This document shows, piece by piece, positions 1,626-38,592 of a stretch of 40,656 nt of DNA. Numbering within the stretch: position 1 is the stretch's first letter; every line of letters starts with the position of its first letter. A model generated the notes under the pieces. The model made no database searches. It was not told the origin of the DNA and saw only the letters and a list, made by a program, of their open reading frames with translations. The DNA comes from Litoreibacter sp. (GTDB lineage: Bacteria; Pseudomonadota; Alphaproteobacteria; Rhodobacterales; Rhodobacteraceae): positions 1 to 40,656 of the forward strand of contig JAPORH010000017.1 of assembly GCA_026710325.1 (NCBI GenBank), given 5' to 3'. Position numbers and translations under genes: made by a program.

Positions 1626-2687
1626 ATGAGTCTGAAAGACCGGCTCTTGCGTCAAATTGCGGTCGATGGCCCGATGAGCCTCGCCGAATATATGCAAGCC
1701 TGCCTCTTGGACCCGAAGCATGGCTACTACACGAAACAGGACCCTTTGGGCGCGGCAGGCGATTTTACCACTGCGCCGGAGATGTCTCAGATGTTTGGCG
1801 AGCTTTTGGGGCTGTCCCTCGCGCAGGCGTGGATGGCCCAGGGCAGCGGTGCGTGCGTCTTGGCGGAGCTTGGCCCGGGACGCGGCACCTTAATGGCCGA
1901 CATGTTGCGCGCGATGCGCGCGCTTCCGTATTTGCAACCTGACGTCCATCTTGTAGAAGCGAGCTCCGCGCTGCGCGAAGTCCAGCGGGACACGCTGGAA
2001 GGGTACAACGTTACCTGGCACGACAACGTCTCGGAGCTTCCACAGGCACCGCTTTTCCTTGTCGCAAACGAGTTTTTCGACGCGCTCCCGATCCGACAAT
2101 TTGTCCGGGACGGCCGTGGCTGGGCGGAGCGCCGGGTTGGCGCAAAAGACGAACTGCTGCAGTTTGGGCTTACCGAGCCCGTCCCCATGGAGGCACTGGC
2201 GCCCCGGCTAGCAGATACGGGTGACGGCGACATAGTCGAGATTTGCGCCAGCGCTGGCCCGATCATGTCCGAAATCGGTGCGCGGATCGAAGCGCATGGC
2301 GGCGCGACCATCATTGTGGATTATGGCGATTGGCGCTCAAAGGGCGACACGTTTCAGGCCGTCAAAGCACACATGCCCTGTGACCCGTTGGAAGCGCCCG
2401 GCGCAGCCGACCTGACCGCGCATGTCGATTTCGAGGCGCTGAGCCTGGCCGCGCATTGCGCGGTCAGCCAAATGACGACGCAAGGCGCGCTGCTAAATGC
2501 GCTTGGCATTGGGCCCAGAGCGCAAAAGCTGGCCGAGCGCCTTGACGATGCGGGCGACATCAAAGGGCTCGAGACGCATCTGGCAGCCTACAAACGCTTG
2601 ACGGACCCGGATGAGATGGGGAACCTGTTCAAAGCGATCGCTCTTTACCCGCAACGCGCGGCACCGCCGCCGGGATTTACCCCATGA
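1626..2687 (+). CDS. class I SAM-dependent methyltransferase, MidA/NDUFAF7 family
   Basis: The 353-residue protein belongs to the COG1565 (DUF185) family. The mitochondrial relative NDUFAF7/MidA dimethylates an arginine of a complex I subunit during assembly, and the bacterial role is inferred by analogy. Visible features are the conserved N-terminus (MSLAEYMQACLLDPKHGYY), a GDFTTAPEMSQMFGE stretch, a SAM-binding ELGPGRGTLMADML motif around residue 82, VANEFFDALPI and a later IVDYGDW motif. All are typical of the family. It is co-transcribed with lgt, and its stop overlaps the pgeF start (ATGA at 2684-2687), which suggests translational coupling. Confidence 0.9.
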   Translation: MSLKDRLLRQIAVDGPMSLAEYMQACLLDPKHGYYTKQDPLGAAGDFTTAPEMSQMFGELLGLSLAQAWMAQGSGACVLAELGPGRGTLMADMLRAMRALPYLQPDVHLVEASSALREVQRDTLEGYNVTWHDNVSELPQAPLFLVANEFFDALPIRQFVRDGRGWAERRVGAKDELLQFGLTEPVPMEALAPRLADTGDGDIVEICASAGPIMSEIGARIEAHGGATIIVDYGDWRSKGDTFQAVKAHMPCDPLEAPGAADLTAHVDFEALSLAAHCAVSQMTTQGALLNALGIGPRAQKLAERLDDAGDIKGLETHLAAYKRLTDPDEMGNLFKAIALYPQRAAPPPGFTP

Positions 2688-3436
2688 CGCTTGAGATCAT
2701 CACTGCCGACAGCCTAGCCCCTTTGCGACACGGGTTTTTCACGCGGCGCGGTGGCGCGTCCTCGGGCATTTACGAAGGTTTGAATTGCGGCTTCGGCTCC
2801 TCTGACCAACGCGACGCCGTGGCGACAAACAGGGCCCGAGTCGCTCAAGCTATGGACGTCGCAGCGGATCATCTGCTTACCGTTCATCAGGTGCATTCGG
2901 CCGATGTGGTGACGGTGGAAGACCCAAAAGCAGAGCGCCCCAAGGCGGACGCTATGGTGACCAACATGCCGGGCGTTGCATTGGGCATATTGACGGCCGA
3001 CTGCCAGCCCGTGCTGTTTGCCGACCCCGTAAATGGTGTGATTGGAGCCGCCCATGCCGGTTGGGGCGGGGCGTTTAAAGGCGTCTTGGAGGCCACCGTC
3101 GATGCGATGGAAGCAATCGGGGCGGAGCGGTCCAAGACACGCGCCGTAATTGGCCCCGCGATCAGCCAAGCCGCCTATGAGGTCGGGCCAGAATTTTTCG
3201 ACCGCTTTATGGAGCAGGATTCGGAAAACGGGCGTTTCTTTGCCAGTGGCGCGGGTAATCGGATGCAGTTTGACCTTCCCTGCTACGGGCTAGAGCGGTT
3301 GCGCAAAGCGGGGATCGAGGCGGAATGGACTCGCTATTGCACCTATTCCGATCCCAAACGGTTTTATTCCTACCGTCGTTCTGTTCACGAAAAGCAGCCC
3401 GACTACGGACGCTTGATCGCAACAATCAGGCTTTAG
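2684..3436 (+). CDS. pgeF: peptidoglycan editing factor PgeF (YfiH / laccase-domain family)
   Basis: The 250-residue protein belongs to the YfiH/DUF152 family, once called polyphenol oxidase. In E. coli PgeF keeps L-Ser out of the peptidoglycan stem peptide. Other members are reported to act on purine nucleosides. Metal-site motifs are visible: VHQVHSADV (His), TADCQPVLFAD (Cys) and AAHAGWGG (His). The N-terminal HGFFTRRGGAS and SSGIYEGLNCG segments are also typical, as is the C-terminal YRRSVHEKQPDYGR. The start overlaps the midA stop by 4 bp. It ends the lgt-midA-pgeF run. A perfect AT-rich palindrome lies 123 bp beyond its stop. Confidence 0.9.
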   Translation: MTLEIITADSLAPLRHGFFTRRGGASSGIYEGLNCGFGSSDQRDAVATNRARVAQAMDVAADHLLTVHQVHSADVVTVEDPKAERPKADAMVTNMPGVALGILTADCQPVLFADPVNGVIGAAHAGWGGAFKGVLEATVDAMEAIGAERSKTRAVIGPAISQAAYEVGPEFFDRFMEQDSENGRFFASGAGNRMQFDLPCYGLERLRKAGIEAEWTRYCTYSDPKRFYSYRRSVHEKQPDYGRLIATIRL

Positions 3437-3558: not shown

Positions 3559-3588
3559 GCGCAAAAAATTTTCTTAAATTTTTTGCGC
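3559..3588. repeat. perfect 13-bp inverted repeat
   Basis: The arms GCGCAAAAAATTT (3559-3571) and AAATTTTTTGCGC (3576-3588) match perfectly around a 4-base spacer. The order of a GC cap outside an A/T core is not that of a classical terminator, where a U-run follows a GC stem. The repeat lies between pgeF and the mini-gene at 3723. It could end pgeF transcription in both directions or be a protein-binding site. Confidence 0.75.
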
Positions 3589-3628
3589 TCGCCATTCTTG
3601 CGCCCGATTGCCCGGCCAATTTGCATCT

Positions 3629-3705
3629 TGTCCCTAGGTGGGGACATCAACGATCGGCCGGGTCAACCTTCCAAGTTGGCCCCCTCCAACTCAACCCGGC
3701 TGACC
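3629..3705 (+). promoter_or_regulatory. structured 5' leader of the 51-codon gene
   Basis: Two stem-loops precede the small gene. The first pairs TGTCCC (3629-3634) with GGGACA (3641-3646). The second is compound: GCCGGGT (3657-3663) pairs with ACCCGGC (3694-3700), and inside it AGTTGG (3674-3679) pairs with CCAACT (3686-3691) around a C-rich loop. The Shine-Dalgarno sequence of the downstream gene starts 7 nt after this. It may be a regulatory leader or a stable sRNA 5' end. I cannot match it to a known RNA family. Confidence 0.45.
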
Positions 3706-3722
3706 AACGATGGAGAGACAAG

Positions 3723-3878
3723 ATGGCAAAAACATCGAGATGGATGGCATGGATCCTCAAGGAAAGTGCCAAACCGCAAGACGCTTTGCCCTGGGCTCGT
3801 GGCAGGCCCTCCCCTCGTCTTTCCGACACGACCCAAAAAGGGTCAGACCGTGGCGAAGCAGACGCCCAAACGGCCTGA
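3723..3878 (+). CDS. small basic protein, 51 residues
   Basis: A GGAGAG Shine-Dalgarno at 3712-3717 stands 5 nt before the ATG. The 51-residue product starts MAKTSRWMAWILKESAK and contains DALPWARG, then a Ser/Arg/Asp-rich polar tail. I recall short Rhodobacteraceae proteins that combine a hydrophobic/basic N-terminal helix with a PW-x-RG motif, but I cannot confirm the family here. The gene has its own structured leader and a strong terminator 21 bp after its stop, so it looks like a separate transcription unit. That context is the main support for it. Its function is unknown, and it could be a small protein embedded in an sRNA. Confidence 0.6.
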   Translation: MAKTSRWMAWILKESAKPQDALPWARGRPSPRLSDTTQKGSDRGEADAQTA

Positions 3879-3899
3879 CTTTCTTTTTGGCGAACAAGA

Positions 3900-3949
3900 G
3901 GCGCGCGCTCAGGACCCCTCAACCTCTTTGAGCGCGCGCCTTTCTTTTT
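3900..3949 (+). terminator. strong rho-independent terminator
   Basis: A 12-bp perfect stem (GGCGCGCGCTCA at 3900-3911 and TGAGCGCGCGCC at 3929-3940) is followed by TTTCTTTTT. It closes the unit of the 51-codon gene. Confidence 0.9.
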
Positions 3950-4002
3950 GCTTTGCAGATCGTGACTTGACGGGACATGCACCGGCGCTCTTATCCTAAG
4001 AC

Positions 4003-36827: not shown

Positions 36828-37038
36828 TTTGCTGCCTTTCAAAAGGATCTCAGTTGGTGCGAAAGGTTGTCTTGGCATTGCCATTCAACGTTTCACCGAT
36901 GCGCCATTTGTCGGCTTGATCGGAACCGAATGCTTGATGATCCCATGAGGTGTTCGTGAAGATTTGCGCCTGCCATACGCCCCCTCAGTCAGGCATTGCC
37001 ACTTTTCGCTAGGCTATCCCGACGTTAACATCGCGAAT

Positions 37039-38592
37039 ATGGAATACAGGTTTGAAGACTTCACACTGAGTACATCGCGGGTCGAACTGCGTTCCGAAGC
37101 TGGTTTGGTGGATCTGGAACCCAAGACGTTCGATCTGCTGTCATTTCTTGTGAAGAACCACCATCGCGCTGTCAGCAAGGACGAGGTTCTGGAGGCAGTT
37201 TGGCCGGGCGTATTTGTCTCTGATGCGTCAATTTCACAGGCACTGAAACAGCTTCGTCGCGCGCTCGGGGATGATGGAAGAAATCAGAAGTTCATCAAAA
37301 CATTGCGAGGCAAAGGTTTTCGTTTTGTCGCTGACGTCACCGAAGTGTCCCTGAAACCTGCAATACCTCAAGACATCCAACCGACCAGCCCTCAAGGTCA
37401 ACAAAAGCAGCAGCTTCCCGGTGTCGCGGTTCTTCCTTTTGATTTGGTGGGAGAGGAAAACGGGGATTTGGTTTTGGCCATGGCGGTGGCGCATGACGTC
37501 ATTCAGGCTCTATCGCGCCTGCATTGGCTTCGCGTAATTGCGCGCGCAAGCGCCTTTCAGCTTAAAGGCCGTCCGCTGGGCGAAGTGGCCGAACACTTGG
37601 GCGTAAAGTACTGTCTGACGGGAACAATCGAACGTTTGCCTGATCGCTTGGTGATTGCGGCAGAACTTGTTGATTTGTCTCGAAACAGCGTTGTTTGGGT
37701 CGATCAGTTCGAAGGGCCGATTGATGACGTTCATGATTTGCGTGCAAAGATTGTGCGCGGCACTATGGCTTCAATCGAAATGCGCATCTCCCAGCACGAG
37801 GCACGCTTTGCTCAGTCAGATGCAACTGAAAGCCTTGATGCGTGGTCCGCGTTTCACGTTGGCCTCATCCATATGTATCGGTTTACGCAATCGAACAATG
37901 CCCGTGCAATCTCGTTATTTGATCGGGCGATTTCGCTGGATTCCACATTCGCAAAAGCGCATGCAGCTCTGTCATTCGCGCATTTTCAGAGTGCGTTCAA
38001 CGTGTATGACGGCACAGACAAATCCGGGTCAGCGAAGCTGGCGGTTGCGGCCGCTGAACGCAGTTTGGAACTGGATGAATTCGACCACTTCGCAAATTTT
38101 GTCCGTGGCCGAGCCTGTTGGCTGACCGGAGACTTGGAGCGTGGACTTGGTTGGGTATCGCGTTCCATTGAGATAAATCCCAACTTTGCGCAAGGGCATT
38201 ACTCGCAAGGCCTGTTGGGTGTTTTGTCTGATACTGACATCGACTTCTTGGGGGCCTCCGACCAAGCCACGTTGCTCAGCCCGACGGATCCGTTGATGTA
38301 TGGGTTTCATGGCATACGTGCACTCGGGTACCTTCACGAGGGCGCCTATGCAGACGCCGCGATCTGGGCAGACAAATCAGCGCGTGCGCACAATTCCTTG
38401 GTAGTGATGGATCTGGTCGCTGTGATCGCCAATGATCTGGCAGGGAATGGTGACGCGGCGCAACGTTGGGCTTCCCGCGCGCATGACCGACATCCAGGAA
38501 TAAGCAGTGCGTACTTGTTCGATGCGCTGCCCTTCCGGAACCCCGATTTTCTCGCCAAGGCCACGCAGGTTCTCGGAAAATACGGGGTCTAA
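37039..38592 (+). CDS. winged-helix / TolB-like / TPR transcriptional regulator (CadC-type)
   Basis: The 517-residue protein has three parts. An N-terminal OmpR/PhoB-type winged helix spans about residues 1-100 (FDLLSFLVKNHHRAVSKDEVLEAVWPG and RRALGDDGRNQKFIKTLRGKGFRF). A TolB/FlgO-like alpha-beta region starts at GVAVLPFDL (about residue 130). TPR repeats cover the C-terminal half (for example AISLFDRAISLDSTFAKAHAALSFAHF). No transmembrane segment is evident. Proteins of this build are common in alphaproteobacteria, mostly unstudied, and lie beside small metabolic genes. I chose the ATG at 37039 because it begins the winged-helix domain. No clear Shine-Dalgarno is visible, so the start is uncertain. 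Confidence 0.82.
   Translation: MEYRFEDFTLSTSRVELRSEAGLVDLEPKTFDLLSFLVKNHHRAVSKDEVLEAVWPGVFVSDASISQALKQLRRALGDDGRNQKFIKTLRGKGFRFVADVTEVSLKPAIPQDIQPTSPQGQQKQQLPGVAVLPFDLVGEENGDLVLAMAVAHDVIQALSRLHWLRVIARASAFQLKGRPLGEVAEHLGVKYCLTGTIERLPDRLVIAAELVDLSRNSVVWVDQFEGPIDDVHDLRAKIVRGTMASIEMRISQHEARFAQSDATESLDAWSAFHVGLIHMYRFTQSNNARAISLFDRAISLDSTFAKAHAALSFAHFQSAFNVYDGTDKSGSAKLAVAAAERSLELDEFDHFANFVRGRACWLTGDLERGLGWVSRSIEINPNFAQGHYSQGLLGVLSDTDIDFLGASDQATLLSPTDPLMYGFHGIRALGYLHEGAYADAAIWADKSARAHNSLVVMDLVAVIANDLAGNGDAAQRWASRAHDRHPGISSAYLFDALPFRNPDFLAKATQVLGKYGV

Follow-up and report, generated by a model that had tools for sequence, protein, structure and literature searches.

A small transcription unit downstream of pgeF

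The window, by which we mean the whole analysed stretch of 40,656 nucleotides of contig JAPORH010000017.1 from Litoreibacter sp., carries a pgeF-type gene followed, after a gap of 290 nt to the ATG, by a small open reading frame (ORF) surrounded by expression elements of its own (Table 1). Two stem-loops, a ribosome-binding site, a 51-codon basic ORF (computed pI of the product 9.98) and a 12-bp terminator stem had been listed in the original prediction, and every one of these elements was found in place. The same prediction described a compact unit of about 320 bp, the start of which agrees with the transcript start near 3627 that we derived independently from the position of the -10 element in a conserved promoter motif; this start lies close to the earlier one, which had been based on the hairpins.

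Table 1. Features of the small-ORF locus (positions within the window)
Feature	Position	Strand	Basis and details
pgeF-type polyphenol oxidase/laccase-domain gene, conserved upstream neighbour	2684-3436	+	Pfam Cu-oxidase_4, E 8.4e-75
Predicted promoter, direct repeat GCC-N8-GCC with extended -10-like element	3591-3622	+	Expectation-maximisation (EM) motif, 129/129 upstream regions; GCC 3591-3593, GCC 3602-3604, G 3615, -10 hexamer ~3617-3622
5' untranslated leader	3627-3722	+	Start from the -10 position, +/- a few bases; diverges more slowly than synonymous sites
Leader hairpin 1	3629-3646	+	TGTCCC/GGGACA, 7 pairs including a closing U-G pair
Leader hairpin 2	3654-3703	+	Outer arms 3654-3663 and 3694-3703; inner arms AGTTGG/CCAACT 3674-3679 and 3686-3691; apical loop CCCCCT 3680-3685
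Shine-Dalgarno GGAG	3712-3715	+	7 nt before the ATG
Small ORF	3723-3878	+	ATG to TGA, 51 codons, MAKTSRWMAWILKESAKPQDALPWARGRPSPRLSDTTQKGSDRGEADAQTA; profile A2 (104 sequences)
Rho-independent terminator	3900-3949	+	Sequence and fold; perfect 12-nt arms 3900-3911 and 3929-3940, 17-nt loop GGACCCCTCAACCTCTT, T-rich tail TTTCTTTTT to 3949

The predicted fold of positions 3610-3955 was stronger than those of all 100 dinucleotide-shuffled controls (z -3.87). The terminator was not listed by a simple terminator scan because that scan accepts loops of 8 nt at most, and no Rfam family reached its gathering score for the unit. The 320-base stretch is best read as a stand-alone gene for a basic protein of 51 residues, with a structured leader, a terminator and, apparently, an activator-type promoter of its own. 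The reading that we prefer, with a probability of about 0.6, is that of a regulated mini-mRNA encoding a lineage-specific small basic protein.

Coding status and distribution of the small protein

When the 51-residue protein was used alone as a query, relatives were retrieved in 15 of the 20 other genomes of the genus and in two other genera (E 3e-7 to 8e-4), each encoded directly downstream of pgeF. A profile built from 18 sequences (A1) gave matches in 148 of 299 sampled genomes of the family, and an enlarged profile of 104 sequences (A2) in 19 of 21 genus genomes and 121 of 150 genomes of the order, with one match per genome. The genome to which the window belongs likewise yielded a single match to profile A2 (E 1.9e-13), the window sequence itself being a row of that profile. 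Among 241 genomes drawn from the whole class only four matches were obtained, all in Rhodobacteraceae, with none in the approximately 237 other alphaproteobacteria, and plasmid records gave no match. Named genera with a homologue include Litoreibacter, Actibacterium, Rhodovulum, Defluviimonas and Acidimangrovimonas.

Of 138 distinct proteins, with a median length of 48 residues and a median net charge of +8, 133 are preceded by pgeF on the same strand and 132 by a Shine-Dalgarno-like site. The family consensus from profile A2, MKxxxRWMKxVLxESAxxxxxMPWARGxRR, leads into a tail that varies among members and is mostly basic; the window protein is less basic than most members (K+R 9, D+E 6). Its gene combines the profile match with the position downstream of pgeF and a GCC-N8-GCC promoter.

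Over codons 2-27, pN was lower than pS in 118 of 120 genus pairs, and dN/dS was approximately 0.06-0.28 in unsaturated genus pairs, distant pairs being often saturated at synonymous sites, which restricts usable ratios to the closer ones. Entropies at the three codon positions were 0.71, 0.72 and 1.35, the third being the most variable. The check on ORF conservation that had been proposed with the original prediction came out in favour of the ORF, both in the spread of homologues within the genus and in the excess of pS. By its distribution the ORF is a genuine gene, and the substitution patterns speak for coding, with purifying selection acting on its 26 N-terminal codons. Structure prediction returned one confident helix at residues 6-15 in a model of mostly low confidence (pLDDT 72, pTM 0.33), and the PDB held no match to the window protein by sequence or predicted fold.

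No family in Pfam, NCBIfam or PHROG matched the window protein, and the best isolated matches among the 104 members had E-values of 0.018 in Pfam and 0.05 in NCBIfam. DUF1127 proteins resemble the family in being very small alphaproteobacterial proteins, often of near 50 residues (PMC12501420), but none of the 104 pgeF-linked members had a match to DUF1127 or any other credible Pfam match. A search of open-licence papers found no literature on these proteins. The family has no Pfam or NCBIfam entry and appears, as far as searched, to be unnamed, linked to pgeF and restricted to Rhodobacteraceae. Retained as a single copy by four fifths or more of the members of a large and ecologically important bacterial family, with a strictly conserved promoter in front of its gene, the protein is a good candidate for a missing element in the physiology of that family.

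The upstream motif and its candidate regulator

An EM motif search over 129 intergenic regions upstream of the small ORF yielded one motif, GCCanAnnnctGCCcCAtTgcncnGncAnAtT, located mostly 74-134 nt before the ATG and scoring on average 22.3 bits against -2.0 in shuffles (129/129 upstream regions). Its strongest columns are G1 (99%), C3 (100%), G12 (99%), C13 (98%), C14 (100%) and A17 (94%), followed by G25 (71%), A28 (89%) and T32 (70%); across the 129 upstream regions it has no -35 hexamer. In the window, the site at 3591-3622 scores 27.8 and is the top site of the 40 kb by 10 bits. Since scores on the training sequences themselves are inflated, cross-validation was run: a matrix from 55 sequences of other genera recovered the identical site for 18 of the 19 genus members, and all 55 held-out sequences of other genera exceeded the 95% level of the null. 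The GCC repeat had a spacing of N8 in 72% of sequences, compared with 1-8% for N5-N7 and N9-N11 and 2% in shuffles, and a strict version of the motif has a single site in the 4.2-Mb genome, at the promoter of the small ORF.

The region behind pgeF was also inspected in 12 genomes that had been scored as lacking the ORF. Three of them had the motif (scores 14-23), each together with a divergent ORF, while the remaining nine had neither motif nor ORF. Since the motif was present only with the ORF in this test, the two belong together; and since such divergent copies escape scoring, the 81% prevalence in the order is, on this sequence comparison, an underestimate.

The motif is missing from the original prediction, which described only the hairpins, the ribosome-binding site, the ORF and the terminator. 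A sigma-32-type promoter, with CCCCATT as the -10 element, was rejected, as inspection of the alignment showed no consistent -35 partner. Between pgeF and the promoter lies a perfect 13-bp inverted repeat, GCGCAAAAAATTT-TCTT-AAATTTTTTGCGC (3559-3588). Its AT-rich core has an aligned, likewise AT-rich counterpart ahead of the GCC repeat of relatives, but the palindrome itself seems to be specific to this genome. Many genus members (e.g. L003, L006, L012 and L016) share a further conserved box, GCGCCACAAT or GGCCACAAT, which precedes the GCC repeat and lies approximately 180-190 nt before the ATG.

Repeats in tandem with such a period, covering the -35 region, are a typical mark of OmpR-family response regulators. 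For CenR of R. sphaeroides the repeat is TGA-N8-TGA (PMC9275681), and a passage of PMC9731502 quotes from Ratib 2018 the consensus N-GCC-N8-GCC for ChvI of Sinorhizobium meliloti, which is the nearest match among published motifs; the Caulobacter ChvI motif has been reported as TTGC-N3-GCAA. The small-ORF promoter has the ChvI-type GCC-N8-GCC site, and the genes of the cognate regulator are found in the same genome in the order pckA-chvI-chvG-hprK, where the ChvG-like kinase matches NF058527 with E 9.6e-114 and 381 bits, below the cut-off of 740, and adjoins an OmpR-family regulator. In the region upstream of chvI the full motif was absent and no good match was found. A scan of 21 genus genomes with a relaxed pattern gave 22 sites against 17 for a control with spacing off by one, which is near chance and leaves no regulon visible at that stringency; the tightest pattern gave six matches in six genomes, including the small-ORF promoter of the window.

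The promoter is likely of the OmpR-family type and under the control of some activator of this type. That the regulator is ChvI, a proposal based on motif resemblance, is given a little under even odds, and envelope-stress control of the small-protein gene is plausible. The layout of the promoter predicts OmpR-type control, with ChvI as the first candidate, which would link the gene to the envelope-stress system. ChvR of Caulobacter crescentus is likewise a small transcript tied to ChvG/ChvI, the tie resting here on the motif, but it is an sRNA from another order that base-pairs with chvT mRNA (PMC6237742), and no homology is implied. Elsewhere in the window, positions 36964-38592 encode a protein with a response-regulator-type winged-helix DNA-binding domain (Trans_reg_C) and weak TPR matches.

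Leader conservation and alternative readings

Pairwise differences within the genus amount to 4-25% in the leader and, for the same pairs, to 18-61% at synonymous sites, so that the leader evolves 2-5 times more slowly. Folded alone, the leader of the window had a z of -2.96, with means of -2.5 for 16 genus leaders and -1.4 for 122 family members. RNAalifold on a MAFFT alignment retained only eight pairs, the hairpin arms being shifted by one base between subclades. For this reason we used a half-swap test, in which hairpin halves were exchanged among 16 genus species, with the shared ancestry of sister species remaining in the result. For hairpin 2, the predicted pairing was -22.5 with own halves and -17.7 with swapped halves, and none of 2000 permutations reached the real value; hairpin 1 showed a slight drop (65/2000 permutations), and an unrelated pair of halves used as a control showed no effect. 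In hairpin 1 a U-A to C-G change stays paired in relatives. The structure-conservation check suggested earlier came out in favour of the leader, both in its sequence and in the pairing of hairpin 2. The proposal that the C-rich apical loop CCCCCT pairs with Shine-Dalgarno sequences fared otherwise: the loop was found only in the genome of the window, the hairpin 2 loops of relatives being unrelated to it, and we discarded it as a conserved seed. The leader is constrained, but an anti-Shine-Dalgarno role of this loop is unsupported. Pairing between the conserved GCCCCATT box and AATGGGGC in hairpin 2 was considered as an alternative and rejected: it was perfect in some species and lost in others, and the box turned out to belong to the promoter motif.

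This constraint bears on several other readings of the locus. A dual-function RNA, the leader and/or 3' end of which would also base-pair with other mRNAs, as has been reported for Pos19 of Rhodobacter sphaeroides, would be in keeping with the slow divergence of the leader, with the matched changes that maintain hairpin 2, with the C-rich loops (e.g. CCUCCC) that the terminators of seven genus members carry, and with the existence of a coding sRNA, Pos19, in the same bacterial family (PMC5036791). We nevertheless consider it unlikely, since the proposed seed loop is not conserved, mRNA stability or translation control would call for a structured leader just as well, and the excess of folding weakens outside the genus. 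No result requires a second function at the RNA level, for which the constraint on the leader leaves room as a possibility. Its stronger form, a core Rhodobacteraceae RNA controlled by ChvGI, in which envelope stress would induce the transcript and protein and leader would both act in the response, is distinctly improbable. Alternatively, the main point of the leader might be to act in cis, its hairpins serving as an attenuator, riboswitch or thermometer that governs translation of the small ORF. The conserved two-hairpin leader does stop 8 nt before GGAG, and in the window the nine nucleotides 3625-3633 (CATCTTGTC), where the leader begins, could pair without mismatch with 3717-3725 (GACAAGATG), which covers the start codon; but this complement is absent from relatives and may lie partly upstream of the transcription start, no alternative pairing was consistent across the genus, and a match in Rfam was lacking, which makes this reading rather improbable.

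It is scarcely credible that the small ORF is simply a downstream part of a pgeF operon, devoid of regulation of its own. The shared strand and constant adjacency of pgeF speak for such an arrangement, yet the gap measures 110-360 nt in nearly all cases and holds the conserved motif, and in the 12-genome test the motif went with the ORF independently of pgeF, which all 12 genomes carry.

For the regulated mini-mRNA that we favour, the following sequence of events is proposed. A response regulator of the OmpR family, with ChvI of the envelope-stress system ChvG/ChvI the most likely one, would bind GCC-N8-GCC, which stands in for a -35 element, and recruit RNA polymerase to the extended -10. The resulting mini-mRNA, approximately 320 nt long, would span roughly 3627-3949. 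Its 5' end would be shielded by the two hairpins of the leader, which might also, or instead, tune translation; the terminator stem would shield the 3' end, and translation would begin at 3723. The protein would act through the predicted short helix near its N-terminus (RWMxxVLxES) and the motif PWxRG, its tail being variable and in most cases basic. It would probably attach to the membrane surface or to another macromolecule during the response, a mode of action that is a guess.

Pos19 (RSs0019) of R. sphaeroides is a 219-nt transcript that contains an ORF of 150 nt, starts from its own stress promoter and ends in a Rho-independent terminator; it resembles the unit in these elements and in belonging to the same bacterial family (PMC5036791). 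It differs in its locus on chromosome 2, where cxp and fadB flank it, in its RpoE promoter and in being reported only from R. sphaeroides strains (PMC5036791), whereas the present unit lies downstream of pgeF, has a GCC direct-repeat promoter and encodes a family-wide protein. Homology with Pos19 was rejected on the differing locus and promoter in the window and its relatives. The C-rich terminator loops of the seven genus members (L004, L012, L015, L016, L156, L157 and L158) are apical, sit in hairpins directly behind the small ORF and read CCUCCC or CCCCCC; Rhodobacter CcsR sRNAs have similar C-rich loops.
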